Shown one piece after another: positions 282 through 30,422 of a stretch of DNA of 37,015 nt. A model generated the notes under the pieces. It saw only the letters and a program-made list of their open reading frames with translations. It searched no databases and had not been told where the DNA came from. This stretch comes from Gammaproteobacteria bacterium. GTDB lineage: Bacteria > Pseudomonadota > Gammaproteobacteria > QZLD01. The number at the start of each line of letters is the position of its first letter. Within the stretch, counting starts at the first letter, position 1. The position numbers and the translations under genes were made by a program. The stretch covers positions 1-37,015 of the forward strand of contig QZLE01000065.1 in assembly GCA_004796365.1 (NCBI GenBank), written 5' to 3'.

Positions 282-349
282 GACGTGCTTTTTTCGAAAA
301 GTGTTATGAGCGCAGGTGATGCTACACCAGCCCTTTTAAATCCAACGAA

Positions 350-450: not shown

Positions 451-459
451 GACGAGGAT

Positions 460-1467: not shown

Positions 1468-1473
1468 AATCTT

Positions 1474-2772: not shown

Positions 2773-2845
2773 ATTTCATTTCTCCAAAAAGCTGTGTATA
2801 AAGGCCGAAAATTGCATTTCTGACTTATAAATAAAAAGTTAAATA

Positions 2846-4261
2846 CTATATACGACCATAGTTGTCCTGTAGACGAATAATATCATCTTCTCCCAGATAG
2901 TCACCACATTGCACTTCAATTAGTTGCAAATCAGTACCTCCAATATTAGTAAGGCGATGCACCGCCTCTTTCTCAATATAGATTGACTGGTTGGCTTCAA
3001 GAACTTTAGTTTCCGCGCCATTGACCACCTCAGCCTTACCCACAACAACTGTCCAATGTTCACTACGGTGCATATGTTTTTGCAACGACAGGGATTGTCC
3101 AGGAAACACAACAATTTTCTTCACTTTGTAGCCAGCAGATTCAATTAGGTTAGTATACCCCCCCCAAGGGCGCCTAGTAGTTTTTTTCTCGCTGTATTCC
3201 GGTCTTTGCCCCTGCTTTAAGGCCTCAACAACCTTCTTAACATCCTGAACCTTATCCTTGTGCACTACTAAGGTAGCATCTTCATCATTCACAACAACAA
3301 TATCATTTACACCAACAACTGCTGTTAAGCGCTGCTTACTATCGACCAAACAATTATTAGAATCGATAGCTATCACATCACCTTCAACAGCATTACCATT
3401 ACTGTCCTCATCAAATACATCTGCCATAGCTGCCCAAGAACCAATATCATTCCACTCAAATGCAGCTGATACTACGGCAACATTATTTGCCTTTTCCATA
3501 ACAGCATAATCAATAGAATCACCTTCAACCCGTTTAAGTGAATCTGCATCAAGAACCAGCGGAAGGCTATCTGCATTTGTCTGCTCCCAGCAGCTACTGA
3601 TTTGCTCAAACATTTCAGGTGTATATTGGCTCAGCGCTTCAAGAAAGGCACTTGCCTTAAAGCAAAACATACCTGAATTCCAAACAAACTTACCAGAAGC
3701 AAGATATTCCTGCGCCTTTCCTAAATCAGGCTTTTCCACAAATCTGAAGACCTCAAAACCAGATTCTGAAATCGAGCCTCCCTTTTCGATATAACCAAAA
3801 CCAGTTTCGGGATGGGTTGGCTCAATACCAAAGGTAGCTAAAAAATCTTGCTCAGCAAGCTCTACTGCATTATCAACCGCCAGCTGAAAAATATCCTGCT
3901 GCGAAATAAGATGATCCGCCGGCAATACCAACATAACCACATCTTCCCCAAATCGCTCTTTAACTCTAAAGGCTGCTGCTGCAATAGCCGGAGCAGTGTT
4001 TTTCCCAAACGGCTCTAATACGAAATCTAACTTCACACCATCACAGCTCTTTTCAAACTCTTCCCGCGTACGAAAATAATAATTTTGGTTTGTAACTACC
4101 AAAATATCTGCCACACCCGAAAGATTTGCTGCACGAGCAAAAGTTTTACCGATGATGGAATTGCCATCAGGCAATTGCATAAATGGCTTTGGATCTGATT
4201 CCCTGGAAACTGGCCATAAGCGTGCCCCGGCGCCGCCAGAAATAATTACTGGTATTAACAT
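2846..4261 (-). CDS. manC: mannose-1-phosphate guanylyltransferase / mannose-6-phosphate isomerase
   Basis: A 471-residue bifunctional ManC/AlgA/WbpW-type enzyme that makes GDP-mannose. The N-terminal nucleotidyltransferase carries a variant of the GGSGSRLWPLSR pyrophosphorylase signature, here GGAGARLWPVSRESDPKPF (9-27), and FVEKPD. The C-terminal type II phosphomannose isomerase cupin carries GQSLSLQKHMHRSEHW. No manB, gmd or other GDP-mannose gene lies in the window, so the mannose may be used as such or the partner genes are elsewhere. A run of eight C (3158-3165 on the plus strand; eight G in the mRNA) encodes part of the conserved PWGGY motif joining the domains. A one-base slip there would remove the isomerase domain. 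Confidence 0.92.
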   Translation of the reverse strand: MLIPVIISGGAGARLWPVSRESDPKPFMQLPDGNSIIGKTFARAANLSGVADILVVTNQNYYFRTREEFEKSCDGVKLDFVLEPFGKNTAPAIAAAAFRVKERFGEDVVMLVLPADHLISQQDIFQLAVDNAVELAEQDFLATFGIEPTHPETGFGYIEKGGSISESGFEVFRFVEKPDLGKAQEYLASGKFVWNSGMFCFKASAFLEALSQYTPEMFEQISSCWEQTNADSLPLVLDADSLKRVEGDSIDYAVMEKANNVAVVSAAFEWNDIGSWAAMADVFDEDSNGNAVEGDVIAIDSNNCLVDSKQRLTAVVGVNDIVVVNDEDATLVVHKDKVQDVKKVVEALKQGQRPEYSEKKTTRRPWGGYTNLIESAGYKVKKIVVFPGQSLSLQKHMHRSEHWTVVVGKAEVVNGAETKVLEANQSIYIEKEAVHRLTNIGGTDLQLIEVQCGDYLGEDDIIRLQDNYGRI

Positions 4262-4299
4262 TATTTACCCATAGTTATTATTGAAGATTAGACCTTTGA

Positions 4300-5466
4300 C
4301 TAATCGCTGCCGAACAAATCTCTAGTATATACCTTATGCTCTACATCTTTTATGTCATCTGACAGCCTATTGGCAACTATAATATCAGAAACTTGTTTAA
4401 ATTCAGATAAATCTTTTATTACCCTAGAGCGATAAAATTCATCTGCATCCAATACAGGCTCATAGACAACCACCTCAATTCCCTTTGCTTTAATTCTTTT
4501 CATAATCCCCTGAATGGATGACGCCCTGAAGTTATCCGACCCTGCTTTCATAATCAGGCGATGCACACCAACAACCTTAGGGTTCTTGCTGGTAATTGAA
4601 TCTGCAATAAAGTCTTTCCTGGTAGTATTTGCATCAACAATAGCTTGAATAATACTGTTTGGAACATCCTGGTAGTTAGCCAATAGTTGTTTGGTATCTT
4701 TAGGCAGGCAGTAACCTCCATAACCAAATGATGGGTTGTTATAATGGCCACCAATTCTTGGGTCCAATCCGACCCCCTCAATTATCTGCCTGGCATCTAA
4801 TCCATGTTTTTCTGCATAAGTATCAAGCTCATTGAAGTAAGCAACACGCATAGCCAGGTAGGTATTAGAAAACAATTTTACTGCCTCAGCCTCAGTAGAA
4901 TCAATAAACAGCTTTGGAATATCTTGTTTAATTGCTCCCTGAGCCAATAAATCAGCAAATTCTCGAGCGCGCTGAGAATCTTCACCTACAATAATTCTAG
5001 AAGGATATAAGTTATCGTAGAGAGCCTTACCTTCACGCAAAAACTCAGGGGAAAAGATAATATTATCGCAACCAAACTTCTCACGAATGTTTTTTGTATA
5101 TCCAACTGGAACAGTTGATTTTATAATCATTAGCGCACCACTTTTTATATCAAGCGCGCTCTTGATAACTGACTCAACAGACCCAGTATTAAAATAGTTA
5201 GTTTTCGGGTCATAATCAGTGGGAGTAGCTATAATTATGAAATCAGCATTTCTATATGCCTCTTCATAATCCAAAGTGGCTTTAAGGTCTAATTTTTTTG
5301 ATAAAAAAAACTCTTCGATCTCTCTATCAACAATAGGGGATTTACGCTGATTTATTAGATTTATTTTTTCTTCAACTAGATCAACAGCGACAACCTCATT
5401 ATTCTGAGCCAATAATACTGCATTTGAAAGACCAACATATCCTGTACCAACTATTACAACCTTCAT
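4300..5466 (-). CDS. ugd: UDP-glucose 6-dehydrogenase
   Basis: A 388-residue UDP-glucose dehydrogenase producing UDP-glucuronate. It shows the Rossmann motif [11 protein letters not shown] (6-16), IIATPTDYD (78-86), KSTVPVGYT (116-124), [14 protein letters not shown] (139-152) and the nucleophile motif [11 protein letters not shown] with Cys253. The length matches the short bacterial Ugd class. It lies 38 bases upstream of manC and follows the WbpM-type gene by 53 bases, so the five minus-strand genes probably form one transcript. UDP-GlcA would feed the 4-epimerase at 460-1467. An AAGGGA lies about 9 bases before the ATG. Confidence 0.92.
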
Positions 5467-5519
5467 CCCTTCTTTTCCCTTATTCTTTCGAAAAACTGAT
5501 AGATTAAATATTACTTGCG

Positions 5520-7484
5520 CTATGAAGAAGATCCAAATGGAATAATCTTTTGTTGTTTTTTTATTCTTATATTATTTTCCAACCAAACTTTGTCCTGAAT
5601 ATCACATTCAGGATCGTATCCAGAAATCACAGCAAGCAGTATATCACGAACCCCTTTTACATTAATATCATGGCAACACTTATCTAATTCACCAATTATT
5701 TTTTGCAGCTCATCCCATGGAATTGAAGTCTCCTCAGCCCTCATAATCAATGGGTGCTCGGTACCGGTTACGTTGTCGCCAATAAGAAGCTCCTCATACA
5801 GTTTCTCCCCCGGACGTAACCCAACTATCTTGATCTCGATATCCCCATCGGAAGAGGCTGTTTTCTCTTTATATCCACTCAATGCAATCATCTTTCTAGC
5901 TAGGTCGATAATCTTAATCGGCTCCCCCATATCCAGCACACAAACATCACCACCCTTAGCTATAAACCCAGCCTGCATCACCAACTGCGACGCTTCAGGT
6001 ATAGTCATAAAATACCGCGTCACTTCTGGGTGCGTTACTGTAATTGCCTCTTTATTTTCAATCTGCCTAGCAAATAAAGGAACAACTGATCCAGATGAAT
6101 TAAGAACATTCCCAAATCTGACCATACAAAACTTCGTTTTGGTTTCCGACTGAGAAATCCCTTGCAAAACGAGCTCAGCAAACCTTTTGGTTGCTCCCAT
6201 AATATTCGTAGGACGTACAGCTTTATCCGTTGAAACAAGAACAAATGTTTCCACCTCCGTTTCATTAGCAGCAACTACCGTATTTAGAGTGCCAAAAATA
6301 TTATTTCTTACACCCTCAATAGGGTTGTGCTCTACTATAGGTACATGTTTATAAGCAGCAGCATGATAAACAGTTTGTACATCATATGCTCGCATAACCT
6401 GCAACAACCTTTTCTTTTGCTGAACTGAGCCAAGCAAAGCTATGATTTCAATCTCGACGGAATACTCTTTAATCATCATTGATTTAAGCTCAGACTCAAC
6501 TTTATACAAAGCAAACTCAGAAAGTTCGAATAAGATTAGCTTTTTAGGGCCCAACACCACAATCTGGCGACAAAGCTCCGAACCTATTGAACCGCCTGCA
6601 CCTGTAACCAATACCGTTTTACCCTGTATACAACCACTCAGCAATTCTTTTCTAGGAAGAACAGTATCACGCCCAAGAATATCATCAACAGATATCTCTC
6701 TTAGTTCCTCAACCCTTGACTCTCCAGACACAATTCGAGCAAATCCTGGCACCGTCTTTACTCTCACACCACAGTCAAGCAATTTTTCCAGTATTTTTTT
6801 ACGCTTATTCTGATCAGTATTAGGAATAGCTAAATACACCTCATCAACAGCATGCTCTTTGCATAACCTCTTTAGCTCGGCTGATGAAAAAACCTCAACC
6901 CCGTCAATTTCCCTACCAAACAATTTTTTGTCTTCATCAAAATAAAGAACATGTATAAATTCAGAGGTACTTGAAATATAGCGAGCCAAACGCACACCAG
7001 TAGCCCCCGCCCCATAAATAGCAATTCGCTTCTTGTTACAAGGTTTAGTTTCCCTAAGTCTCCCAGTAGCCAAAGAGCTAAAAATTTGTCGCGCGAAAAA
7101 TCTACTACCTCCCAAACACAATATTGATAATAACCAAAAGATTGCATATACACGCAAAGGAACTGCTCCAGCATAAAAAAGCTTAGTGCTAATAACCAAC
7201 CAAATAGTTGCAACACTAGCAGCCCCCACAACAGTCCAAATAGTCTTCAGCCCAAGATAACGCACAATAGCTCTATACATACCGAGTTTCAAAAAAATAA
7301 CTGATGTGACTATTGGCAAAGAAAGATAAACCATCCAAGGAATACGATTAGACAACCCGTAACTGCCTGTTATCAAATAGCAAGATAGATAAAGTGAAAA
7401 GGGGATCAAAAACAGATCATTTACCAACAAAATCAGGCTCTTACAAAGGCGCGGCAATTCTTCTAATTTTTCAAGAAAATTCAT
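5520..7484 (-). CDS. wbpM: WbpM/CapD-type membrane UDP-sugar 4,6-dehydratase
   Basis: A large nucleoside-diphosphate-sugar dehydratase expected to convert UDP-GlcNAc to UDP-4-keto-6-deoxy-HexNAc at the inner membrane. It has four N-terminal membrane helices, a first Rossmann-like domain ([15 protein letters not shown]), then a catalytic extended-SDR domain with [12 protein letters not shown]. Its active-site motif is MGATK, with Met in place of the usual SDR Tyr, as in WbpM and FlaA1. The open frame extends upstream to 7559. I chose the ATG at 7484, giving 654 residues, because the family normally starts with a short amphipathic segment like [13 protein letters not shown] just before the first helix and the extra 25 residues look non-coding. 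It heads the leftward block and probably acts with WbpV (33288-34247). Confidence 0.9.
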
Positions 7485-7721
7485 ATTCAAGGTCTTTCCA
7501 TGACTTAAATTCAACCCATAATAAATATAGCCTGAAGGCAGGCGATAACATAATATCATCTACTTTTCACATTTAATAGGCTGGTATTTTATTTTTAAAC
7601 TATGTTATATTGCCGAGCTGGGAAAGCGGATATTGCTTTGCTCCTATAGGAAGAATCTCCTAGGGCGGTAGCGTGCTTTATTCAAGCGAAAAGAGTAAAT
7701 GGAATTACAACCAAAACAATT
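7485..7721 (+). promoter_or_regulatory. divergent promoter region / JUMPStart leader
   Basis: This 237-base non-coding stretch separates the leftward nucleotide-sugar block from the rightward cluster and must hold the promoters for both. A plausible -10 hexamer for the rightward transcript is TATATT at 7606-7611, but I see no convincing -35 at the right spacing. A hairpin with arms aaagc and gcttt (near 7623-7639) precedes the ops element. The start of transcription cannot be fixed by reading. Confidence 0.45.
7664..7676 (+). promoter_or_regulatory. ops element (JUMPStart core), RfaH recruitment site
   Basis: The sequence GGCGGTAGCGTGC matches the known operon polarity suppressor element (GGCGGTAGCGTG) exactly. 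In Escherichia coli this element, in the non-template strand of a paused RNA polymerase, recruits RfaH, which suppresses termination through long surface-polysaccharide operons. It lies 58 bases upstream of the first plus-strand gene and points into the 27.5-kb rightward block. An rfaH homologue is encoded at 35270-35752, which strengthens the call. Confidence 0.92.
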
Positions 7722-9515
7722 ATGACTACAAGTGAGACAACCTCCCTTTTTCAAGACCTTAAACGACTTTGGAAGCATATTTCTTCAAAAAGACGCTTTC
7801 AGATAGTTGCATTAGGTGGCGGCATGTTATTGGGAACAATTGCAGAACTTGCTTCATTAGGAATGGTTTTTCCTTTTCTTGGTGCCTTGACTGCTCCTGA
7901 TAATATTTTCAAGCATGAGCTTGCCCAGCCTCTAATATTCAAGCTAAATTTAACATCTTCTGATCAATTACTGTTACCACTTACTTTTTTATTTGGTATT
8001 GCAGCAATTTTTTCAGGATTCACCAGACTTGCATTACTGTGGGGGCAGGCAAGAATAGGAAATGCAATAGGCAATGATCTAGGCTCCGAAGCTTACCGCC
8101 TCACTCTTTACCAACCATACAAATTTCATGCCTCACGCAATAGCAGCGAAATCATCGCTATATTGATGACAAAAATCAATACGGTCGTCTATTACATAAT
8201 AATTCCGTTGCTTATGCTTATTACCTCTATTTTCACTGTATTTACAATTGTTGCCTTTATGATTCTGGTTGCTCCAAAACTCACATTAGCCACATGCCTT
8301 GGGTTTGCTTGCATATATTTTTTTATCGCTTACTCAACAAAAAAACGCCTCAAAAAAGACAGCGAACATGTGACTACTGGCCAAAATAATGTTGCCAAAA
8401 TTGTTCAGGAAGGCCTTGGGGGAATAAGAGATATTCTTATTGATGGCCTTCAAGAAACTTATCATAATATCTATCGCCAAGCAGATAATAAATTCAGGCG
8501 AGCACTAGCAAATATTGCTATTATTAGCGGAGCTCCAAGACCTGCAATTGAGGCTTTTGGTTTAGTGCTTATCGGCTTCATAGCCTATATGTTTACCAAC
8601 CCAAAAAATGGCATGACTACTGCGATACCACTACTTGGGGCTCTCGCACTAGCTGCTCAACGACTACTGCCATTAGTACAACAAGGATATGCTGGCTGGA
8701 CTTCTATGCAAGGAGGGCGTGACTCTCTAAAAGACGTTCTTGAGCTTCTTGAGCAGCCTCATCCACATTACATCAAGCAACCAATTTCAACTCCTATCCC
8801 ATTTAAAGACAACATATCCATTAATAACTTAGAGTTTCAATATAGCCTCGACAACCCTATTGTATTACACGATATTAATTTAAAAATCCCTTGTGGAAGC
8901 AAAATCGGCTTTATCGGCACAACAGGTAGCGGGAAAAGTACTTTGCTAGATATAATAATGGGCCTACTCACCCCAACCTCAGGCAGTTTATGTATCGATG
9001 GAATTCAAATTGATGAAAAGAACCAACGTGCTTGGCAAGCCCATATCGCCCATGTACCTCAAACAATATACCTTGCCGATGCTACTGTTGCAGAAAATAT
9101 AGCTTTCGGAGAAAAATTAGAAAACATCAATCAAGAGAAATTAGCAAATGCTGCAAATATGGCGCAAGTATCTGATGTTATTGAGTCTTGGGATGACGGA
9201 TATAATACTTTCGTTGGTGAAAGGGGCATTCGCCTCTCTGGAGGTCAGCGACAACGAATTGGCATTGCCAGAGCTATTTATAAGCAAGCCAACGTCATCG
9301 TTTTTGACGAGGCAACAAGCGCATTAGATAACAAAACAGAGAAATCTGTAATGGAATCAATTAACTCTCTCGGTAGAGATATTACGATTATAATGGTAGC
9401 TCACCGCATAACAACATTGCAGAGTTGCGACACTATCGTTGAATTAAATCATGGAAAAATTCAGCGGATAGGCTCATATGAAGATATTTTCAACACACCA
9501 CCTAAGAAGACTTAA
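7722..9515 (+). CDS. ABC transporter, lipid-linked oligosaccharide flippase (PglK-like)
   Basis: A 597-residue half-transporter with an N-terminal membrane domain (about six helices, residues 25-330) and a C-terminal ATPase. The ATPase shows Walker A GTTGSGKST (about 398-406), signature LSGGQRQR, Walker B VIVFDEATSALD and switch VAHR. The opening GTIAELASLGMVFPFL resembles the PglK family, which flips lipid-linked oligosaccharides across the inner membrane. As first gene after the ops element in a cluster with Wzy and Wzz but no Wzx, it is the best flippase candidate. A general MsbA-like exporter is the alternative. No strong Shine-Dalgarno precedes the ATG. Confidence 0.85.
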   Translation: MTTSETTSLFQDLKRLWKHISSKRRFQIVALGGGMLLGTIAELASLGMVFPFLGALTAPDNIFKHELAQPLIFKLNLTSSDQLLLPLTFLFGIAAIFSGFTRLALLWGQARIGNAIGNDLGSEAYRLTLYQPYKFHASRNSSEIIAILMTKINTVVYYIIIPLLMLITSIFTVFTIVAFMILVAPKLTLATCLGFACIYFFIAYSTKKRLKKDSEHVTTGQNNVAKIVQEGLGGIRDILIDGLQETYHNIYRQADNKFRRALANIAIISGAPRPAIEAFGLVLIGFIAYMFTNPKNGMTTAIPLLGALALAAQRLLPLVQQGYAGWTSMQGGRDSLKDVLELLEQPHPHYIKQPISTPIPFKDNISINNLEFQYSLDNPIVLHDINLKIPCGSKIGFIGTTGSGKSTLLDIIMGLLTPTSGSLCIDGIQIDEKNQRAWQAHIAHVPQTIYLADATVAENIAFGEKLENINQEKLANAANMAQVSDVIESWDDGYNTFVGERGIRLSGGQRQRIGIARAIYKQANVIVFDEATSALDNKTEKSVMESINSLGRDITIIMVAHRITTLQSCDTIVELNHGKIQRIGSYEDIFNTPPKKT

Positions 9516-9570
9516 CAAATGAGCCATTCTTTTAACTGTTTGATGTACTTATATTGCAAAACCATGGTTC

Positions 9571-9575
9571 GGAGG
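9571..9575 (+). promoter_or_regulatory. ribosome binding site deciding the NeuB-family start
   Basis: GGAGG stands 5 bases before ATG 9581. The frame is open from an earlier ATG at 9554, but that one has no Shine-Dalgarno and the extra nine residues do not look like family sequence. The start is therefore placed at 9581. Confidence 0.8.
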
Positions 9576-9580
9576 AAAAA

Positions 9581-10663
9581 ATGACCAATACACCATCTTC
9601 GGTAATTGAAATCGATGGGACAAAAATCAGCCTAAACGACCCAGTTTATTTTATCGCAGAAATAGGTTCAAACTTTGACCGTGATCTCAATAGAGCTAAG
9701 GATCTAATTTACCTCGCAAAAGAGGCTGGTGCCGATGCTGCAAAATTTCAGCATTATACGGCAGCATCACTTGTCAGCGACCATGGTTTCAAACAACTGG
9801 GATCCAAACAATCTCATCAAGCATCATGGAAAAAATCCGTTTTTGACACATATGAAGACGCATCCTTGAACAAAGATTGGACCGCAGCATTAAAAGCAGC
9901 ATGCGATGAAGTCGATATCTCTTTCTTTACTAGCCCTTATTCCATTGAGCTAGTTGATTTTGTTGATCAATTTGTTCCGGCATACAAAGTTGGATCAGGA
10001 GATATTACTTGGCCTGAAATAATTGAGCGTATGGCTTCAAAAAACAAACCAATTCTTCTAGCAACTGGAGCATCAGACATTTCCGATGTTGACAGAGCTA
10101 TGCAATCTGCACTTTCGGTTACTTCAGATGTAATTCTCATGCAATGCAATACTAACTATACTGCAAAGTTTGAAAACTATTATCATATACAACTGAATGT
10201 TCTAACAAAGTTTCGCTCCATGTACCCTGGTGTAGTACTAGGCCTTAGCGATCATATGCCTGGTCACGTTTCTGTTCTAGGAGCAGTTGCTTTAGGGGCA
10301 CGAGTAATCGAGAAACATTTTACCGACTCTGTCGACCGCGACGGTCCAGACCACCCGTTTTCCATGACCCCATCATCGTGGAAAGAGATGGTAGACAGAA
10401 CTCGAGAATTAGAAGCCTCACTTGGAAATGGCCAAAAGAAAATTGAAGAAAATGAGCTGCAAACAGCTATAGCTCAGCGCAGGAGCATAAGAGCAAACTG
10501 CGACCTTGCAAACGGAGCAACTCTTACAGAAGATAATTTAACTGTGCTTAGACCATGTCCTGAAGACGCAATCCCACCATACGACCTAAACAAGCTAATT
10601 GGGAAAAGAATTAAAAGAGGCGTTAGTGAGGGCGAATATTTAAAATGGGATAACATCCTCTAA
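9581..10663 (+). CDS. NeuB-family nonulosonic acid synthase
   Basis: A 360-residue PEP-condensing synthase of the NeuB/PseI/LegI/SpsE family, which joins phosphoenolpyruvate to a six-carbon sugar to make a nine-carbon keto-acid. It carries FIAEIGSNFDRDLNRAKDLI near the N-terminus, AGADAAKFQ, metal-binding histidines in LSDHMPGH (near residue 223) and EKHFTD (near 245), GPDHPFSMTP, and a C-terminal SAF (antifreeze-like) domain with RRSIRA and IGKRIKRG. The family's usual asparagine-histidine pair after AEIG is altered (SNFDRD instead of VNHNGD), so the substrate may not be a standard ManNAc derivative. It opens a four-gene cassette with a dehydratase, an unknown protein and a cytidylyltransferase fusion. 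Confidence 0.85.
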   Translation: MTNTPSSVIEIDGTKISLNDPVYFIAEIGSNFDRDLNRAKDLIYLAKEAGADAAKFQHYTAASLVSDHGFKQLGSKQSHQASWKKSVFDTYEDASLNKDWTAALKAACDEVDISFFTSPYSIELVDFVDQFVPAYKVGSGDITWPEIIERMASKNKPILLATGASDISDVDRAMQSALSVTSDVILMQCNTNYTAKFENYYHIQLNVLTKFRSMYPGVVLGLSDHMPGHVSVLGAVALGARVIEKHFTDSVDRDGPDHPFSMTPSSWKEMVDRTRELEASLGNGQKKIEENELQTAIAQRRSIRANCDLANGATLTEDNLTVLRPCPEDAIPPYDLNKLIGKRIKRGVSEGEYLKWDNIL

Positions 10664-10687
10664 TTGTTATTTAATAAGGTTTTAATA

Positions 10688-11686
10688 ATGTTACCAGAAA
10701 AAACTCGAATACTCGTTACTGGAGGCTGCGGATCTGTTGGGTCTGCATTAGTGCAACGTTTGCTTGAAGAAGGACATACTGTTTGTGCCTTTGATCAAAG
10801 TGAAGACGGACTCTTCAAGCTTGAACAAGAACTAAAAGATAAAGCCAATGGTCGGCTAAAACTATTTCTCGGAAATGTGCGAGATGAAAACCGCCTCAGA
10901 CGCGCCATGGAAGGAGTTCAACTAGTATTCCATTGCGCAGCCTTGAAACATGTGTACCTTTCTGAATACAACCCATTTGAGGCGATGTTAACCAACATCG
11001 ATGGCACCAATAATGTAATTCAAGCTGCTGTTGCTGCTGAAGTAGAGCGCGTAGTTATAACAAGTAGTGACAAGGCAGTTAACCCAACAAGCACAATGGG
11101 AGCTACAAAATTACTTGGCGAGCGTCTTTTTGTCGCTGCAAATCATTATGCAGGCCATAAAACTCGATTCGCATGTGTACGTTTTGGGAATGTCTTAAAC
11201 TCTAACGGATCAGTATTGCAAATATTCAAACGCCAAATAGAGAACAAACTGCCGTTAACAATAACATCAACTGAAATGACTCGTTTCTATATTTCTATGG
11301 ACCAAGCTGTTGACCTCTGCATAACTGCTTCTGAGCGCATGATTGGAGGTGAAATTTTTGTAATGAGCATGGGAAGCAGCGATATTATGAGCCTTGCAAA
11401 AGCCATATCTGATAATGAAGAATTTAATTATACTGAGATTGGCCACAAACCAGGTGAGAAACTTTATGAAGAGCTAGTAACAGAAAGTGAAGCTCCACGT
11501 ACTGCATTTGATGGAAGCACATATATTGTTCTACCAGATACGATGGATATGATGCCAGCCAACATCAGAGATGAATATTCCGTTTATAATGAGCACCCAA
11601 AGCTCAGTGCTCCACTTCGCTCTGATGAAGACTTACTATCAGTAGCAGATGTTAAAAAAATGCTTTTCTCTGCAGGATTACTTTAA
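10688..11686 (+). CDS. short-form FlaA1/PseB-like NDP-sugar 4,6-dehydratase (SDR)
   Basis: A 332-residue soluble extended SDR. It has the NAD motif LVTGGCGSVGSAL, VFHCAALKHV, SSDKAVNPTSTMGATK with Met in place of the catalytic Tyr, and the C-terminal [17 protein letters not shown] block. These are hallmarks of the soluble FlaA1/PseB/CapD dehydratases that start pseudaminic and legionaminic acid pathways and FucNAc synthesis. The frame is open from a TTG at 10664, but ATG 10688 with TAAGGT upstream is the better start. Following the NeuB-family gene directly, it probably supplies a 4-keto-6-deoxy sugar to the same pathway. C5-inverting versus retaining chemistry cannot be told by eye. Confidence 0.82.
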   Translation: MLPEKTRILVTGGCGSVGSALVQRLLEEGHTVCAFDQSEDGLFKLEQELKDKANGRLKLFLGNVRDENRLRRAMEGVQLVFHCAALKHVYLSEYNPFEAMLTNIDGTNNVIQAAVAAEVERVVITSSDKAVNPTSTMGATKLLGERLFVAANHYAGHKTRFACVRFGNVLNSNGSVLQIFKRQIENKLPLTITSTEMTRFYISMDQAVDLCITASERMIGGEIFVMSMGSSDIMSLAKAISDNEEFNYTEIGHKPGEKLYEELVTESEAPRTAFDGSTYIVLPDTMDMMPANIRDEYSVYNEHPKLSAPLRSDEDLLSVADVKKMLFSAGLL

Positions 11687-11734
11687 AAAAACGGTGCCAT
11701 TGATTGTGTCAATTAAATTAAAGGCTGATTACAT

Positions 11735-12481
11735 ATGTTGGAAAATATAAACGGTATATCAAGCGATCATTTTTCGCACCTTTCACAAGCATATCAAAGT
11801 GTTGGTGGTAAAACTTGGGCTAATAATGACTTTCTTGAAGCAAACCTTGAAAGCTCAAGAAACCTTTTTACTGAAGAAAGCATGATCAAAAGATGCCCTC
11901 TACCAAAAAAACTAGAAGTTTTTGCGCTTGTCGCAGGCCTGCCATTCCCACAAGAGTTCATTAATAGCATTACTAACGTCCAAAAACAGATTTCCGAAAT
12001 CATTGGTGACTGCCTTCATTATTGGGTTAAACCAAATAATCTTGGCGTAGAGTATTGCGTTTTTAAATGGCCTACAGATCCATGGAAACAAGAGTGGCTT
12101 GAAATAGCTCAAAATGAGCTAGAAATAATCCAGCAACCAGCTTTTAAATTCTCAATAGGCGGCATACAAATTAATCCTGATGGTTGCGTGGTTGCAAGAG
12201 GATATGATGAGAACAGCACATTATTCAATATAAGAGATCATATTAAAGCAAATATTGACTTTTTACCTTCGAAACAATCAGGGTGGGCCCATGTGCCTCT
12301 TGGAAGAATTTTGGAACCAGTTGGTACAGATAAGTTTGCTAAACTTGCAGAATTTATTAGCTCAATATCGGATACACTTATCACCTGTACAACCATTAGT
12401 TCAATGAAATTAATTCATGAAAAGCGTTGGTACATGGAGGAAAAAACCGTTCTTAAAGAGTATATGCTGAATGATTCTTAG
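11735..12481 (+). CDS. unrecognised 248-aa protein in nonulosonate cassette
   Basis: Soluble, with no signal peptide or membrane segment. Its arrangement faintly recalls the two-lobed 2H phosphoesterase (LigT/2'-5' RNA ligase) fold: a strand-rich first half (FALVAGLPFP, LHYWVKP), then FKFSIGGIQINPDGCVVARG and AHVPLGRIL. The last resembles the second HxT motif of that family (HITLGRI), with Pro replacing Thr. The first HxT motif is not evident, so even if the fold is right the protein may be catalytically altered. It lies between the dehydratase and the cytidylyltransferase fusion, so it probably belongs to that pathway. It could fill the missing hydrolase or another step. Function is not known to me. 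Confidence 0.75.
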   Translation: MLENINGISSDHFSHLSQAYQSVGGKTWANNDFLEANLESSRNLFTEESMIKRCPLPKKLEVFALVAGLPFPQEFINSITNVQKQISEIIGDCLHYWVKPNNLGVEYCVFKWPTDPWKQEWLEIAQNELEIIQQPAFKFSIGGIQINPDGCVVARGYDENSTLFNIRDHIKANIDFLPSKQSGWAHVPLGRILEPVGTDKFAKLAEFISSISDTLITCTTISSMKLIHEKRWYMEEKTVLKEYMLNDS

Positions 12482-12493
12482 AGAAGTTAGACC

Positions 12494-14557
12494 ATGGGTA
12501 TAAAGAAAAAAATTGTTGCAATTGTTCAAGCTCGAATGGGGTCATCTCGATTACCAGGCAAAAGCATGGCAGACGTAGCAGGAACACCTTTAATAAACCG
12601 CGTACTAATGCAACTAAAAGGCAGTTCACTACTTGATGAAATTGTAGTTGCCACCAGCACCTCTTCAGAAGATGATATTATTGAAGAGTTTGTAAATAGC
12701 AAAGGCTTTCTTGTAACCAGAGGGCCTATAGATGATGTACTTACTCGATATAACATAGCTGCAGAAATTTCAAAGGCAGACATCATTATTCGTATAACAG
12801 CTGATTGCCCACTACATTCAGGCGATACGATAGATGAAGTTATAAATGACTTTTTAACTAACGATGCTGACTATGCTTGCAATACAAATCCTTATACGAG
12901 ACCCGATGGTCAGGACGTGGAAGTTTTTACTAGAAATGTCCTAACTCTTGCATCCAAGCATGCTTTGCAAGGACCAGATAGAGAACATGTTACCCCCTGG
13001 ATTAAACGTAATAGTGAAATCAAAAAACTTGATGTTCTGCACTCCCCCCCCCACCAGCCATCAATGCGATGGTCCGTTGATTACCCTGATGATCTAGAAT
13101 TTGCACGTACAATTTGGTCATACCTTGACCAAATTGGAACTAAACCATTTAACTTCGAGGATATTATGTCAGCTGTCATTAATAGTGGCGCCAAGCAAGG
13201 TGCTGCAATTATCAACGAAGGATTTTATCTTTCTATATATAATGAAGCTTCTGCAGAAGCTGCACCAGCACTTTCTCTTGAAAAGAGTTTTTCTTGGTTG
13301 GAACGAAGCGAACAGGTTATTCCTGGAGGCGCTCAAACCTATTCAAAAAGCTGGCGCCATCACATAAGAGGAGTCACACCTATTTTTCTTGAAAGAGGTG
13401 ATGGCGCAATTGTTACAGATGTCGACAACAATGAATACGTGGACTTAATCCAAGGTTTGCTGCCAAATATCCTTGGTTACGCTAACAAAGAAGTAAACCA
13501 AGCCGCATATGATCGTGCCAGCAATGGTCACAGTTTTTCTCTTGCTCACCCAATAGAAGTAGAGCTTGCTGAAAGACTATGTAACATTTTTCCTTGTGCT
13601 GAAATGGTCAGATTTGGCAAAAATGGTTCGGACGCAACAGCAGGTGCTGTTCGCGTTGCACGAGCCTATACAGAACGAGAACATGTAGCAGTTTGTGGAT
13701 ATCACGGATGGCAAGACTGGTTCATTGGAACAACGTCACGCTCAGCTGGGGTACCTAAAGGGGTTCAAGAACTTGCACATCCTTTTCCATACAATGATAC
13801 TGATGCATTAGAGGAACTTCTATCCAGTAAACCTGGACAGTTTGCTGCTGTGATCATGGAACCTGTTAATTTTATTTGGCCTGAACCGGGATATCTTGAA
13901 AAAGTTAAAGAGATCACCCATCGCCATGGTGCACTATTGATCTTTGATGAAATTTGTTCAGGATTCCATTTTGGTTTAGGCGGAGCTCAAAAACTATTTG
14001 GAGTAACTCCTGACCTAGCTACTCTAGGAAAAGCAATTGGAAACGGTTGGCCAATAAGCTGCGTCGTCGGCAAACGTGAAATAATGAAAACTTTTGAAGA
14101 TGCTTTTGTTAGCTTCACCTTCGCAGGTGATGTTTCTGCTATGGCAGCTGCAATGAAAGTATTAGATATACTTGAATCAGGTAATGCTTATGCACGTATG
14201 AGTGCTGCTGGCACTAAATTATTTGATGGAGCACGAGTTATGGCATCCGCAGCAGGGTTGGGGGATGCATTCCAATTAAAAGGGCATCCTCATTGGTCAA
14301 TCTTTTCTTTCGTTGATGAAAATGGTGAAGATGATCCAGCAACTAGAGCTTTATGGATTCAAGAAGTGACTCGCAAAGGGGTATTAATTCTGACAACATT
14401 TAATATCTCTGCCGCTCTCGATGATTCTTCTGTCACAACAGCATTATCAGCTTTTGCTCATGCATTTAAGAGAGTTGCTAAAGCAAAATCCCTCGGCATT
14501 CCCCCGGAATCTTGGCTTGATGGCCCAATACCAGTTCCTGCTTTTCGAGCTAGATAA
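12494..14557 (+). CDS. fusion: SpsF-like cytidylyltransferase + class III aminotransferase
   Basis: A 687-residue two-domain protein. Residues about 5-245 form an SpsF/NeuA-like cytidylyltransferase (VAIVQARMGSSRLPGKSM, ITADCPL, REHVTPWI, MRWSVDYPDDLEFAR), expected to activate an acidic sugar as its CMP derivative. Residues about 265-675 form a PLP-dependent class III aminotransferase like glutamate-1-semialdehyde aminomutase, with GKNGSDATAGAVRVAR, YHGWQDWF, LIFDEICSGF and the PLP lysine Lys513 in TLGKAIGNG. The two activities, often separate in sps-type loci, are joined here, suggesting they serve one pathway. A nine-C run at 13044-13052 falls in codons 184-187, inside the first domain. Confidence 0.88.
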   Translation: MGIKKKIVAIVQARMGSSRLPGKSMADVAGTPLINRVLMQLKGSSLLDEIVVATSTSSEDDIIEEFVNSKGFLVTRGPIDDVLTRYNIAAEISKADIIIRITADCPLHSGDTIDEVINDFLTNDADYACNTNPYTRPDGQDVEVFTRNVLTLASKHALQGPDREHVTPWIKRNSEIKKLDVLHSPPHQPSMRWSVDYPDDLEFARTIWSYLDQIGTKPFNFEDIMSAVINSGAKQGAAIINEGFYLSIYNEASAEAAPALSLEKSFSWLERSEQVIPGGAQTYSKSWRHHIRGVTPIFLERGDGAIVTDVDNNEYVDLIQGLLPNILGYANKEVNQAAYDRASNGHSFSLAHPIEVELAERLCNIFPCAEMVRFGKNGSDATAGAVRVARAYTEREHVAVCGYHGWQDWFIGTTSRSAGVPKGVQELAHPFPYNDTDALEELLSSKPGQFAAVIMEPVNFIWPEPGYLEKVKEITHRHGALLIFDEICSGFHFGLGGAQKLFGVTPDLATLGKAIGNGWPISCVVGKREIMKTFEDAFVSFTFAGDVSAMAAAMKVLDILESGNAYARMSAAGTKLFDGARVMASAAGLGDAFQLKGHPHWSIFSFVDENGEDDPATRALWIQEVTRKGVLILTTFNISAALDDSSVTTALSAFAHAFKRVAKAKSLGIPPESWLDGPIPVPAFRAR

Positions 14558-14620: not shown

Positions 14621-16084
14621 ATGGAATTCACAATTCTCACAATAGGCTGGGAGCCTGATTTTATAAATGAATTACTTGGCCCAATAGAAAAACAGCTAGA
14701 TATTAGTTTTATTCATGGTCTTGTTGGTGATTCATCACGTATTACACCAGCAAAAAAAGAGTACCCTAATCTAAATTTTATTTCTGTTTCTAAAACAAAG
14801 AACGAACCTTTACCTGCTACAGATTTTGAACTTCTTGCAAGTTTAGAAAGCCCTGGAATCCCAACAATTAAAAGTATGATTCAAGGCGATAGAGTTCTTA
14901 GAAACAGAAATGAAAACGAATCGCTTGGATATGCAACACTGCTTGCAACCAATATTAAAAAGGCAATATTAGATATCAAACCTGACTTAGTCCTAGGATC
15001 TCATGATAGCATCCATTCGGGCATAAGTTTAGCTGTAGCAAAATCGCTTGAAATTCCTTGGGTAGCAATGGCTTTTCCTGTAATACCGGAAAACCTAACT
15101 GGCTTTTGCTACAGCCTAACTCCAAACTCGCTTGTCCAAGTTACCACACAAGAACCTCAACATTATATTGATACCGCTAAATCCATTATTGAAAATGTAC
15201 GCTCACAGAAACAAAAGGTTGTAGCATATCGTGCTCCAACCACCATTTCTCAATGGATGAAGCAATATCTATTGCACTACAAAAATCTCTTACGTAGAAA
15301 GCAACAGTCAGAAATATTAGGAATAGATCATTTTATATATTCATCTGCAATAGAGCGTATTTCAGATATAATTCGTAGATCATGCAATCGCTTACGTCTT
15401 CCAGCAAAGAGATTTATTAATTCCCCCCCTAAATCAAAGTATGTATATTTCCCCTTACATATGGCACCTGAATCAATGCTTGATACATGGTCTCCATATT
15501 ATCAAGACCAACTTTCTTTTATAACCCAGCTCTCATTATCTATTCCTATAGACATTGAATTTGTTATTAAACTGCACTTTAGCGACCCCAATAATTACAG
15601 CTATAGCCAATTAAATCGTTTAATGAACATGCCAAAGCTTAAAATAGCTCATCCGAATGCATCTGGAAATGAATTCCTAAAGAACGCGGCTCTTATTATT
15701 GGCATACAGGGAACATCTTGTTTGGAAGCTGCTCTAGAAGGGAAACCCGTACTTCTTTTTGGAGATTCACCATACCTCCATTTCCCTAGAACAGAGCGAG
15801 CAAAGCGTCCTGATGAAATATTTAATCAGATAAAAGAAATGCTTAACCAACCTGAGCCTACTAGAGAAGAAATTGTTAAACAATATGCTGTATATTTGTC
15901 AAGATATTTACCAGGGCGCGTGAATGATTGGTCAAGACCAACTACACAAGCAGACCTTAACAGGTATTCTGATTGTTTTAACTCATTGAGAAATTATCTT
16001 CAAATAGCAAATAATCGTAACAATTGGTATAAAAAGCCTCCTTTTGTTGCTTACAAACAAGGCGACCTTTACCCATCAAAATGA
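14621..16084 (+). CDS. KpsC/Capsule_synth-like GT-B glycosyltransferase
   Basis: A 487-residue protein with no membrane helices. The second half has features of the capsule synthesis (KpsC/KpsS) and related GT-B transferases: YVYFPLHMAPESMLDTW, then a dQlsfi helix, FVIKLHFSDPN, and the donor-site-like stretch IGIQGTSCLEAALEGKPVLLFGDSPY. The N-terminal half (DLVLGSHDSIHSGISLAVAKSLEIPWV) fits the acceptor lobe. Family members often use CMP-activated keto-acid sugars such as CMP-Kdo, so it is a reasonable candidate to transfer the product of the preceding cassette. Its stop overlaps the next gene by ATGA (16081-16084). A seven-C run occurs at 15423-15429. Substrate is inferred from position only. 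Confidence 0.65.
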   Translation: MEFTILTIGWEPDFINELLGPIEKQLDISFIHGLVGDSSRITPAKKEYPNLNFISVSKTKNEPLPATDFELLASLESPGIPTIKSMIQGDRVLRNRNENESLGYATLLATNIKKAILDIKPDLVLGSHDSIHSGISLAVAKSLEIPWVAMAFPVIPENLTGFCYSLTPNSLVQVTTQEPQHYIDTAKSIIENVRSQKQKVVAYRAPTTISQWMKQYLLHYKNLLRRKQQSEILGIDHFIYSSAIERISDIIRRSCNRLRLPAKRFINSPPKSKYVYFPLHMAPESMLDTWSPYYQDQLSFITQLSLSIPIDIEFVIKLHFSDPNNYSYSQLNRLMNMPKLKIAHPNASGNEFLKNAALIIGIQGTSCLEAALEGKPVLLFGDSPYLHFPRTERAKRPDEIFNQIKEMLNQPEPTREEIVKQYAVYLSRYLPGRVNDWSRPTTQADLNRYSDCFNSLRNYLQIANNRNNWYKKPPFVAYKQGDLYPSK

Positions 16085-17403
16085 TTAATAAGGTAAAATC
16101 AAATATTATAGACTCCTCACTTGCTGCTGTAATCATTTTTTATGGTGCGCTTGTATTTTGCCTTCCAGTGCCTCATTCATATGAAGTTGTAAGCCTTTAT
16201 CCATGGTGGAGCAAAAAAATTGGATTCGGAAATATCCAACTACAAGAGTTATTATTCATAGTTTGGTTTTTTCTAGTCGGATTCAAATTTGAATATAGAA
16301 CACTTCTTAAAGGTGGCATCCCAACAAGGCAAGCAGGAGTCTGGTTAATCTCCTTGGCATTATGGTGCGGCTTAATATCATTAACAGCGCCTTTACCATG
16401 GATTGATACTGGGCGTACCTTCCGTTTACTTTTAAATGTAGCCCTTATGTTTGCAGTTGTTAGATGGACAAAGAAAAGCGGAAACATGCCACTCACCATG
16501 TTAGTATTAGGGTTTTTTACTGGCACTATTATTAATTTAATAATATCTTTCAGATTTCCATTAATAGTAAATGAAACTATGCGTCTATCAGGGCAAAGTA
16601 CGCCTGGTGTAGCAATGGGAATTGCAATTCATCTCTCTGCTTGGTTATTTTTCACAAGCAAGCAAACATCTATAAAAATATTCAGCTTTTGCTCTGCTTT
16701 AGTATTCTCTATGGCTTGCTCGATCAGTTATTCCAGAGTTGGTTGGTTTGCTGGCGGGCTCGGTTTGATTGCTTGGGGCTACGTTCTATTAATTGCCAAA
16801 CCCAAAGATCGAACTCAGAAGAAATACCTTAAAATACTAAGAATCCTTTTGGTTCCTGCTTTTTTTGCATCTTTGGCAATTGCCCAGAAAAGCCAATTAA
16901 TTCAAGAAAGCCTTCATTGGGTCACATCCCTTATTGAACAAAAAGTTTCAGGGCCTGGCGAAAGTGATTCTATTCGCTGGGCCTATGTAGAAGGAACAAT
17001 GGAAATCATATTGAGATCGCCACAAGGGGTGGGCTATTCAGGTTTTTATGATGCAATGATAGAAACTGATATTTACTCCAGCGGTAAAGCTGCTGAAGAA
17101 GAATCAGCTAACTCAGCTAATCCGCATGCGACTATTCTTTGGTATATTACAGCAGGAGGAATTCCTGGTGGGATCATTTCTATAATGGTATTTTTATTGT
17201 TATTAAATAGTTTGAGGATAGGTTTGCGTATATCTTTGGGGTCACCAGGAAGAGTCTTGTTTTTCTTAATTCTTTTCCCTTTCATCGTGATTAGCCTAAC
17301 GGTACCATATCTTTTCAATTCAACTATTTTAATAGTGCCCACAGCTATAGCTGCTGGCTGGGGGTGGCGAAACAAAATATCATACAATAATCAAACTGCT
17401 TAA
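16081..17403 (+). CDS. wzy: O-antigen polymerase/ligase family membrane protein (Wzy or WaaL)
   Basis: A 440-residue inner-membrane protein with about ten or more hydrophobic segments. The segment SYSRVGWFAGGLGLIAWGY matches the Wzy_C/O-antigen ligase family signature (SRxxWlg). A large periplasmic-type loop follows, and NPHATILWYITAGGIPGG resembles the conserved HN/PH region of that family. It is the only protein of this kind in the window. With Wzz present, the likelier role is polymerase; ligase (WaaL) remains possible because the two cannot be separated reliably by sequence. Translationally coupled to the preceding glycosyltransferase by a 4-base overlap. Confidence 0.75.
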   Translation: MINKVKSNIIDSSLAAVIIFYGALVFCLPVPHSYEVVSLYPWWSKKIGFGNIQLQELLFIVWFFLVGFKFEYRTLLKGGIPTRQAGVWLISLALWCGLISLTAPLPWIDTGRTFRLLLNVALMFAVVRWTKKSGNMPLTMLVLGFFTGTIINLIISFRFPLIVNETMRLSGQSTPGVAMGIAIHLSAWLFFTSKQTSIKIFSFCSALVFSMACSISYSRVGWFAGGLGLIAWGYVLLIAKPKDRTQKKYLKILRILLVPAFFASLAIAQKSQLIQESLHWVTSLIEQKVSGPGESDSIRWAYVEGTMEIILRSPQGVGYSGFYDAMIETDIYSSGKAAEEESANSANPHATILWYITAGGIPGGIISIMVFLLLLNSLRIGLRISLGSPGRVLFFLILFPFIVISLTVPYLFNSTILIVPTAIAAGWGWRNKISYNNQTA

Positions 17404-17418
17404 TCATTAACGAATAAT

Positions 17419-18168
17419 ATGGAAACTTATATGGAACAGGAAATTAATTTCGACAAAAAAGTATATGACAAAGTCTTACAGAGCAACTTAATTGATGTCT
17501 TTAACAAGCATCACCGAAAGGACATTTCTCCTCACTATATTGAGCGAGCAGATAGAAATATATTTGCGGCAAATCAAATAGAAAAGACTCAAATAGAGCG
17601 AATACTCAACCTAGGTGGAGGAGGTAAACGTCATTTACAGGCTAGCTTTTCTGATAACAACATTGAAGTCTATGAAGTTGACATCCAAGGTGACTGTGAT
17701 TTAAAAATTAATATTGATTCACTAGAAAAATTACCTTTTGAAGACAATTCTTTTGATGCTGTATGTGCCTTTGATGTTCTAGAGCACCTTGAAAATTTTC
17801 ATTTAATTAACGAAGAAATGTTCAGAGTATCAAAAGAATATGTATTAGTTTCTTTACCGAATAGTGCAACAGAGATCTTTAGCACGGTTTTTCGAAATAA
17901 GGCGCAAAAGAATCCTGATTTAGATAGAGGGGTTTTTTCATATTTTTATGGATTACCACTTGCTCCTCCTAGCGATAGACATCGATGGTGGATTTATTTT
18001 CAAGATATTATTAGGTACTACTATTACTTTTCACTAAAAAACAATGCTTCAATTGAATTTTGGACCCCTAAACTTAATTTGAAAAAGAAGCTTTTCAAAA
18101 CAATTTTTGGTTCTCACCTATATCATACTTTTTTCTGTCAGCATGTATGGATAAAAATAAGCAAATGA
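17419..18168 (+). CDS. class I SAM-dependent methyltransferase
   Basis: A 249-residue cytoplasmic methyltransferase. Motif I is atypical (RILNLGGGGKRHL in place of a vLDvGcG-like motif). The acidic end of strand 2 (YEVDIQGDCDL), LPFEDNSFDAVCAFDVLEHLEN and the later YVLVSLPNS are typical of the Methyltransf_11 family. The C-terminal third is rich in Tyr, Phe and Trp and has no recognised motif. In a polysaccharide cluster it could O- or N-methylate a sugar or cap the chain. It starts 15 bases after wzy, and a second in-frame ATG at 17431 is an alternative start. Confidence 0.75.
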   Translation: METYMEQEINFDKKVYDKVLQSNLIDVFNKHHRKDISPHYIERADRNIFAANQIEKTQIERILNLGGGGKRHLQASFSDNNIEVYEVDIQGDCDLKINIDSLEKLPFEDNSFDAVCAFDVLEHLENFHLINEEMFRVSKEYVLVSLPNSATEIFSTVFRNKAQKNPDLDRGVFSYFYGLPLAPPSDRHRWWIYFQDIIRYYYYFSLKNNASIEFWTPKLNLKKKLFKTIFGSHLYHTFFCQHVWIKISK

Positions 18169-18238
18169 TAATCATACACTAGCGTGTGTTTTATAATGTT
18201 ATGCCTTCCATTAACTAAGCACTAGTATTTATTTAACA
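18169..18238 (+). other. 70-base internal gap with ops-like core
   Basis: A short non-coding gap in the plus-strand operon. It contains TAGCGTG (18180-18186), the same seven bases that end the ops core at 7664-7675; over 12 bases, 8 match ops. No clear terminator or promoter is visible. The element is too degenerate to call as functional. Confidence 0.25.
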
Positions 18239-19396
18239 ATGAAACAAAACATAGATGAATTAGCCAAATTTAAAATCGCTTTTTTTCTGCAAAGCCTTGC
18301 GGGGGGGGGAGCCGAGAGGGCTATCGTTGCTTTAGCGGGAGCAATTGCAGATCAAGGATTCACTGTTGATCTAGTCATAGGGGATGCACAAAGTGATTAC
18401 CATTCCGAAATAGCCTCGAATGTTAATGTCCATGATTTTTCAACGCGATCACCTGTGAAAACTATGCGCTGTCTGATGGCATATCTACGATATCATAACC
18501 CACAAGTAATTATGTCGGCCCTTGACATACCAAATCTAATGCTGATCATTTCAGCCAAACTCGTTGGTTACAAAGGAAAAATCTTTATCAGCCAAAGAGC
18601 TGTTATTGACGCAAGTTTGCGCAACCTTAAACCTTGCAGAAGAATCATAACAGCCTTTCTGCAAAAACTTCTTTTCCCGTATGCAGATACACTAATAAGC
18701 AATTCCAAAGCAGCTGCTAACGAGTTACTAAATAGACTTAGCATTCCTGCTGAGAAAATAATTACAATTCAAAATGCGATTGATTCAGAAAGAATATACA
18801 AATTATCATTAGAGCCGCTACATGATAAATTTATTGAGGAAAATTCCCTACCAGTAATTCTTACAATTGGAAGTTTGACCAAACGCAAGGATATACAGAC
18901 ACTGATCAAGGCCATTGCAATTGTTATTAAACACAAAAAAGTAAAATTAGTTATTCTCGGCAAAGGTCCGGAGCAAAAAAATATAGACACATTAATTTCT
19001 AAGCTGAACCTGGAAGAATATATCCATCTACCAGGATTTGATGTAAATCCATACAAATGGATTGCGGCATCGTCGGTATTTGTTAGTTCTTCAACTGAAG
19101 AAGGTTTTCCAAATGTAATTGCTGAAGCACTTGCACTAAACTGCCCTGTAGTTGCTACTGATTGCCCAGGAGATACAAGTGATCTGTTAGAGTTCGGCAA
19201 ATGGGGAAAACTTGTACCCGTTGGTCATGTAGAGCAAATGTCAGAGGCTATACTGACTACCATTAACGCCTCAAATAATCCTGATGGTCGTAAACGAGCT
19301 GCTGATTTTACTCCGGACAAAGTGACAGCAGCCTATCTAGAAGCTCTTATGTCAATGCAATGTCAAACTAGCAGCAACATTTGGAGACAGGAATAA
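18239..19396 (+). CDS. GT4-family glycosyltransferase
   Basis: A 385-residue GT-B fold transferase. The N-terminal motif LAGGGAERAIVALAGAI is typical of GT4 enzymes. The C-terminal donor domain has TIGSLTKRKDIQTLIKA, LVILGKGPEQ, IHLPGFDVNPYKWIAAS and the E-x7-E motif in EEGFPNVIAEAL, followed by NCPVVATDCPG. It would add one sugar to the lipid-linked unit on the cytoplasmic face. Codons 21-24 (AGGG) are written as nine consecutive G (18301-18309), an unusual choice in this AT-rich DNA. A slip at this point would abolish almost the whole protein, so the gene is a candidate on/off switch. The next gene begins 5 bases downstream. Confidence 0.88.
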   Translation: MKQNIDELAKFKIAFFLQSLAGGGAERAIVALAGAIADQGFTVDLVIGDAQSDYHSEIASNVNVHDFSTRSPVKTMRCLMAYLRYHNPQVIMSALDIPNLMLIISAKLVGYKGKIFISQRAVIDASLRNLKPCRRIITAFLQKLLFPYADTLISNSKAAANELLNRLSIPAEKIITIQNAIDSERIYKLSLEPLHDKFIEENSLPVILTIGSLTKRKDIQTLIKAIAIVIKHKKVKLVILGKGPEQKNIDTLISKLNLEEYIHLPGFDVNPYKWIAASSVFVSSSTEEGFPNVIAEALALNCPVVATDCPGDTSDLLEFGKWGKLVPVGHVEQMSEAILTTINASNNPDGRKRAADFTPDKVTAAYLEALMSMQCQTSSNIWRQE

Positions 19397-19401
19397 AAAA
19401 C

Positions 19402-21273: not shown

Positions 21274-21324
21274 TTTATACTTGAGAAAATGAGATTTTTA
21301 AATCTCGATTGAACGGAGAGCAAA

Positions 21325-27452: not shown

Positions 27453-27455
27453 CCG

Positions 27456-30402: not shown

Positions 30403-30422
30403 TAAAAAAATATCCGGAAGAA

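Follow-up and report, generated by a model that had tools for sequence, protein, structure and literature searches.

The 37,015-nucleotide stretch from position 1 of contig QZLE01000065.1 in the gammaproteobacterial assembly GCA_004796365.1, called the window here over its full length, contains a cassette of four consecutive genes whose products resemble enzymes of nonulosonic acid synthesis. Newly recognised in it is a 2H-fold component, a protein of 248 residues, in a mobile, conserved variant of nonulosonate synthesis. The protein is encoded beside a NeuB-type synthase of a distinct subfamily (NeuB*) and a short sugar-nucleotide dehydratase, and these three (the trio) recur together in several phyla. 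It is quite possible, if short of probable, that the cassette is a complete, transferred alternative route from UDP-N-acetylglucosamine (UDP-GlcNAc; UDP, uridine diphosphate) to an acid of the 5-acetamido-7-amino type activated with cytidine monophosphate (CMP). The features of the cassette are:

9584..10663, + strand: NeuB-type nonulosonate synthase with SAF domain, subfamily NeuB* (PF03102, 1.7e-68, plus SAF)
10688..11686, + strand: short nucleoside-diphosphate-N-acetylhexosamine 4,6-dehydratase with PglF/WbpM-type signature, predicted to be C5-retaining (Polysacc_synt_2, 4.6e-88)
11735..12481, + strand: 248-residue protein of the 2H phosphoesterase superfamily, proposed UDP-sugar-processing enzyme (predicted fold, bridging homologues)
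12494..13255, + strand: N-terminal domain of a fusion protein, SpsF-type cytidylyltransferase for CMP activation (PF02348, 2.3e-31, residues 8–176)
13256..14557, + strand: C-terminal domain of the fusion, class III aminotransferase of the glutamate-1-semialdehyde (GSA) type, dependent on pyridoxal phosphate (PLP) (PF00202, 1.3e-50)

Domains were called with Pfam and NCBIfam profiles, applying the curated equivalog cut-offs of the latter. The four open reading frames (ORFs) lie on the plus strand where the first-pass annotation of this DNA had placed them, with gaps of a few tens of bases, and each has the expected Pfam domains or lack of them. The NeuB* ORF has a possible alternative TTG start upstream at 9554, and the dehydratase ORF is open from 10664, with the start taken at 10688. 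The fusion ORF (12494–14557) encodes 687 residues with CTP_transf_3 and Aminotran_3 domains. No DegT, GNAT, PseG or NeuC protein was found among the Pfam-scanned genes of the window, which are all but a few small ORFs at its ends – the earlier annotation had likewise reported no DegT aminotransferase, N-acetyltransferase or hydrolase.

A conserved trio with a 2H-fold protein

The 248-residue protein has no match in Pfam, NCBIfam or the PDB sequences. Its AlphaFold2 model, built from 14 sequences, scored a pLDDT of 91 and a pTM of 0.87. In a Foldseek search of the PDB there were 39 matches at E ≤ 1e-3 (best E 3.6e-8), comprising 2H phosphoesterases (LigT, AKAP18, ASCC1, USB1, plant cyclic phosphodiesterase) and some mitoribosomal proteins. 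Profile matches to the family were found in four genomes (L061–L064), and three of the four proteins pass the cut-off of PF10469 or PF13563. These four small 2H phosphoesterases keep their HxT motifs intact (e.g. IHLT, AHLT) and are distant homologues of the 248-residue protein; a C-terminal NDWY/RWYM motif is common to both groups, with NDWYM and NDWYQ forms in L061–L064.

An alignment through these bridging proteins places G104-x-E106 at the first HxT motif and H186-x-P188 at the second, and hhalign against LigT proteins of related genomes gave the same register with a modest score. All 14 aligned rows share E106, K111, Q145, D149, C151, H186, P188 and R191. The protein thus has the fold of the 2H superfamily (LigT/ThpR, AKAP7, PF13563/PF10469) and distant sequence homology to it, but it has lost both HxT/S motifs, has extra N-terminal residues, and is found in a sugar-pathway rather than an RNA or nucleotide setting. 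Sequence and model together indicate that it descends from a 2H phosphoesterase, a relationship identified in this analysis. With both HxT motifs replaced, it cannot use the two-histidine mechanism. No relative was found in viral, phage and plasmid collections. Among open-access papers, nothing was found on the trio or on a 2H protein in nonulosonate synthesis, nor was any paper found on BFO_1060.

The 248-residue protein is encoded in 12 further genomes, from Gammaproteobacteria, Desulfoluna, Geobacter, Planctomycetota, Bacteroidota, SAR86, Puniceispirillum and SAR11. A thirteenth match (L021), a fragment of 39 residues, was set apart. As first suggested from the window alone, the gene for the protein goes along with those for synthase and dehydratase: the three genes are contiguous, in the same order and on the same strand, in 12 loci (the window and 11 others) of several phyla. 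The contig of a thirteenth locus, L017, starts at the gene for the 248-residue protein. This recurrence exceeds chance. Pairwise distances of the trio proteins are correlated (Spearman 0.87–0.89, or 0.69–0.73 without SAR11; Mantel p ≤ 0.006), and all trio reading frames are intact and conserved across phyla. The family is rare, with none in 399 Pseudomonadota genomes beyond the window itself and one weak, distant match. NeuB* identity of 63–72% between phyla, together with the scattered occurrence, suggests that the trio was spread by horizontal transfer.

What follows the trio is more variable. The cytidylyltransferase/aminotransferase fusion is present in eight of the loci with the 248-residue protein, and L011 has the two as separate genes. 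In two SAR11 loci a DegT gene is found, in place of the class III aminotransferase in L019 and overlapping the cytidylyltransferase gene in L020. L014 has a cytidylyltransferase and a short-chain dehydrogenase/reductase (SDR); the flanking stretches read there encode no recognised aminotransferase, and its genome has other DegT genes. In L012 a Gfo/Idh/MocA oxidoreductase follows the trio, and then the contig ends. The conserved unit is therefore the trio, with an exchangeable module for amination and activation in which the fusion is usual but replaceable; of the conserved quartet that had been proposed, three genes hold and the fourth is replaced in several loci. No PseG- or PseH-like proteins were found near the trio loci, as had been expected, and PseC-like (DegT) proteins only in the two SAR11 loci. 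L016 has genes for a formyltransferase, an aminoglycoside-type N-acyltransferase, an AMP-ligase and a DUF4910 protein between trio and fusion, and the acyl-transfer genes would fit acylation of a free amine. DUF4910/DUF2172 aminopeptidase-like proteins are encoded in or beside NeuB* clusters in L016 (6734–8089), L020 (5064–6386) and L071 (8560–9867).

Synthase, dehydratase and aminotransferase fusion

NeuB* scores below the cut-offs of both the NeuB_NnaB model (260 bits, cut-off 400) and the PseI model (231 bits, cut-off 340). It has AEIGSNFDRD where NeuB has AEIGxNH[EN]G; the alteration, noticed in the first-pass annotation, is real and kept across the whole subfamily, with phenylalanine throughout in place of the NHxG histidine. 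Nonetheless, in an alignment to meningococcal NeuB, equivalents of E25, K53, Q55, T110, K129, S132, Y186, S213, H215, H236, D247 and R314, positions that we take to be catalytic, are all present. Trp82 is invariant in the subfamily and aligns with a tryptophan of Campylobacter jejuni PseI, and an invariant alanine replaces Ser154 of NeuB. In a small tree with long branches and only rough distances, NeuB* stands apart from two PseI sequences (support 100/100); its nearest outgroup there is a Maritalea plasmid protein.

The dehydratase had been described as PseB/FlaA1-like. This holds for the overall profile, with 285.8 bits against PseB (under the curated cut-off of 407.75), but not for the catalytic signature, which is of the PglF/WbpM type: SSDKAVNPTSTMGATK, where canonical PseB has Yx3K and xGSRGS. 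The whole family of 12 shares SDKxnMx3K, in L009 with S instead of A behind DK, and a loop of the LNSNGS type, with variants, that lacks arginine. The sequence of the PglF structure has Mx3K and RFGNVLGSSGS (a VLGSSGS loop). TDKxnMx3K marks the retaining PglF/WbpM enzymes and Yx3K the inverting PseB enzymes (PMC8987622); FnlA/WbjB (4j2o) likewise has the methionine, but keeps the arginine loop. The window enzyme has both the signature and the arginine-free loop of the retaining class, and not those of the PseB class. It is predicted to be C5-retaining, which would give a Leg-like configuration at C8, and so points to a product like legionaminic acid (Leg) rather than pseudaminic acid (Pse). 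The idea that loss of the SRGS arginine reflects a new nucleotide substrate (e.g. CMP-nonulosonate) was dropped, since PglF and a WbpM-like protein of the window also lack it.

In the fusion, the solved structure closest to the first domain is the cytidylyltransferase 6oew, and the CTP_transf_3 domain carries an SpsF-like QARMGSSRLPGK motif, in keeping with a CMP-nonulosonate synthetase. The second domain, earlier called GSA-like, is a class III aminotransferase with conserved PLP aspartate and lysine motifs (FDEICSGF and GKAIGNG). Its best NCBIfam match is PRK06209 (369.8 bits, cut-off 486), and with 242.6 bits against the HemL profile (cut-off 527.3) it does not class as a GSA aminomutase. 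It is 78–86% identical in most trio loci. As the first-pass annotation had it, the enzyme is coupled to a CMP-sugar synthetase, being fused or adjacent to it in nine trio loci and in L072, L073 and L085; in Halorussus there are separate genes side by side. In L085 it is the sole recognised aminotransferase in a 20-kb stretch that also encodes PseB, a PseH-like GNAT, a cytidylyltransferase and NeuB*.

This pairing is already known from canonical clusters of Legionella, Aeromonas and a Pseudosulfitobacter plasmid. A class III aminotransferase gene adjoins that for the CMP-nonulosonate synthetase in the Legionella pneumophila Sg6/12 O-antigen cluster (PMC3694923) and in group I of the Aeromonas flagellin glycosylation islands (PMC7874193). 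Unlike in the window, the enzyme there accompanies DegT/PseC and an aldo/keto reductase, and PseG is present in most cases. The Pseudosulfitobacter pseudonitzschiae plasmid NZ_CP022416.1 (L072) has a fusion 36% identical over 99% and a related neighbour of the GT-B type; its cluster differs from the window in having the full set of PseB, PseC, aldo/keto reductase, GNAT, PseG and PseI, and no 248-residue protein was found in it. Within this canonical Pse cluster (4072–13670) the fusion lies beside PseC and the aldo/keto reductase, a layout suggestive of a further amination of Pse. In clusters that already have PseC, the class III enzyme must have another task, plausibly at the nonulosonate stage.

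Proposed route and its alternatives

The window assembly is 82.8% complete, in 201 contigs, and has a second NeuB on contig C103. There, a complete canonical pseudaminic acid cluster (306–10615) makes up a second nonulosonate system of the same assembly, with a binning error possible in such a draft. C103 holds PseB, PseC (568 bits), PseF, PseG (322 bits), PseH, PseI, a Pse-type methylase and PtmG/HisH/HisF-type amidino genes; PseC and PseG are above their cut-offs. A KpsC/GT-B-like gene is next to PseI. The PseG of C103 is the only one in the genome. The first-pass annotation had held that a full Pse set elsewhere in the genome would speak against an unusual pathway, and C103, taken literally, is such a set. 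However, C103 comes with a dehydratase, a synthase and a CMP-synthetase of its own; the cassette of the window is thus a second, parallel system rather than a missing part of that set. Since most other hosts of the trio lack PseG and NeuC, the C103 set also does not explain the cassette.

Ten of the 12 related genomes have no protein above the curated cut-off of PseG or NeuC; G148 passes for both and G150 for NeuC alone. A PseG-like protein of G145 stays below the threshold, and the others have only low-scoring NeuC-type matches that are probably WecB-like. Neither protein was found in two isolates, G149 (Thiohalophilus; G124 is the same assembly, 100% complete) and G144 (Desulfoluna). This pattern is consistent with the 2H protein having taken the place of PseG.

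We infer the reactions and their order as follows. The PglF/WbpM-type dehydratase would convert UDP-GlcNAc to UDP-4-keto-6-deoxy-D-GlcNAc. The 248-residue protein would then do the job of PseG, SpsG or LegG, stripping off UDP, perhaps with 2-epimerisation, by means of an E106/H186 pair in place of the two histidines. NeuB* would join the free sugar to phosphoenolpyruvate (PEP), the class III aminotransferase would aminate the keto group that was at C4 of the sugar and is at C7 of the nonulosonate, and the SpsF-type domain would form the CMP-sugar. Last, the GT-B-type protein encoded at 14621 may pass the sugar into a Wzy-type polysaccharide made by the flanking genes. On the best reading, the class III aminotransferase replaces PseC or SpsC, and its tie to the CMP-synthetase makes amination around the nonulosonate stage the likelier timing. 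A legionaminic-type product with a 7-amino or 7-N-acyl group suffices to account for the genes, and an undescribed acidic sugar is possible.

Among known systems, the cassette is most like the sps route of Bacillus subtilis (SpsM-C-D-G-E-F), which makes legionaminic acid by a UDP route with the PglF-like SpsM as first enzyme (PMC7439481). Both have UDP-linked intermediates, a PglF-type dehydratase (Mx3K), NeuB/SpsE and an SpsF-type cytidylyltransferase; the window has the class III fusion for the DegT protein SpsC, no counterpart of the N-acetyltransferase SpsD, and the 2H-fold protein for SpsG (PseG). The canonical PseB-C-H-G-I-F pathway has the same logic of dehydration, amination, UDP removal, PEP condensation and CMP activation. 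The window differs from it in its dehydratase signature, in lacking PseC, PseH and PseG, and in a synthase outside the PseI model.

Several points weigh against this route. We know of no 2H protein that cleaves UDP-sugars. Many hosts are metagenome-assembled genomes or single cells, which makes the absences soft; in the window's own genome PseG, PseH and PseC on C103 could act in trans; and in L072 the fusion stands alongside both PseC and PseG. NeuB* itself was found in five genomes with no match to the 248-residue protein in the same sample, so that the idea of an obligate trio was rejected. No PseG was found within the 16–20 kb read at these five loci, which makes the hydrolase role less confident – absence of PseG alone cannot assign its job to the 248-residue protein. 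A canonical-type PseB is present in three of the five. An RmlD-like SDR gene lies directly upstream of NeuB* in all five (L081–L085), and a short GT2 gene directly downstream in L081–L084 and in L071. L071, too, has no 248-residue protein, and these loci together make up a second setting of NeuB* with no recognised PseG.

The last loci bear most on a somewhat unlikely alternative, in which the 248-residue protein is a 4-keto-sugar epimerase or isomerase, or a non-catalytic partner of dehydratase and synthase, with UDP removal left to some unrecognised enzyme. In its favour, both HxT motifs are lost, clusters of the RmlD type do without both the protein and a nearby PseG, and the SDR taking its place beside NeuB* would suggest a redox or isomerase-like role rather than hydrolysis. 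Against this, the invariant polar residues E106, K111, Q145, D149, C151, H186 and R191 suggest an active site, and the trio loci offered no further recognisable hydrolase candidate. A slightly more plausible doubt, compatible with the rest of the proposed route, concerns only step order: amination may come early, and the fusion may simply link gene products. DegT stands in for the class III enzyme in L019 and L020, as expected for the same step, and L085 combines PseB and a PseH-like GNAT with the class III aminotransferase only. Yet the coupling to the CMP-synthetase is constant, even in clusters with PseC, and extends to the DegT gene of L020; L014 has the trio, and no aminotransferase was recognised in the flanking stretches read, with other DegT genes in that genome. 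An unlikely extension of the proposed route takes amination as late: a 2H phosphoesterase would have become a UDP-sugar hydrolase with a new catalytic Glu/His pair, and the trio would make a 7-keto nonulosonic acid that exchangeable modules (class III fusion, DegT, possibly a reductase) would finish. The canonical step order would then be reversed, with 7-keto nonulosonate as a new intermediate.

It is improbable that the cassette is incomplete and relies on PseC, PseH and PseG of C103 to make a second Pse or Leg derivative. A complete canonical set is at hand in the same assembly, but C103 brings PseB, PseF and PseI of its own, most other trio hosts have neither PseG nor NeuC above cut-off, and the trio elsewhere is not near PseC, PseH or PseG genes, apart from the PseC-like ones of SAR11. 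The product of a retaining-type dehydratase would also mismatch the stereochemistry of PseC and PseG. Still less credible is another PEP-derived ulosonic acid as product, or a relic. NeuB* does fall under the cut-offs of both synthase models, but the frames are intact and conserved across phyla, and a set of dehydratase, aminotransferase, NeuB and CMP-synthetase fits nonulosonate chemistry.

In the proposed route, the 248-residue protein is a candidate for a new class of enzymes with a fold familiar from RNA repair; if it releases UDP, 2H proteins gain a sugar-nucleotide function. Marker searches by PseC/PseG/PseH or LegC/G/H would miss or misfile such clusters. The four-gene set is small enough for one-pot reconstitution.

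Neighbouring genes

Two accessory genes border the cassette:

7722..9515, + strand: ABC exporter directly upstream (Pfam ABC_membrane/ABC_tran; frequent neighbour)
14621..16084, + strand: GT-B-type protein, probable nonulosonate glycosyltransferase (homologues behind the fusion elsewhere, GT-B matches)

Homologues of the exporter are in the same place in L009, L013 and L016 (59–65%) and in L015 and L018 (31–32%). The GT-B-type protein has close homologues behind the fusion in L016, L017 and L018, and weaker ones in the canonical Pse clusters of L072 and C103 (L006), both with their own PseG; none was found in L010 and L013. Its model is of low confidence (pLDDT 66, TM-scores about 0.2–0.35, GT-B matches only). 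It was considered as the missing hydrolase, the model resembling GT-B proteins including NeuC/WecB, and set aside given that low confidence, the homologues beside PseG, and the absence from L010 and L013; a glycosyltransferase is judged more likely.

Downstream of the fusion, 16081–22332 of the window is syntenic with 13178–19215 of L013, a comparison of two gammaproteobacterial genomes, with genes for Wzy, a GT4 protein, an asparagine-synthase-like protein and a methyltransferase (55–65% identity). The region 25705–28235 has PtmG-like (30% to that of C103 over 175 residues), HisH-like and HisF-like genes, by homology a putative amidotransferase module for an acetamidino sugar in the same polysaccharide locus. 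Beyond it, 28306–32105 encodes a fused zinc-dehydrogenase/Gfo-Idh-MocA protein and then a heparinase II/III-type protein.

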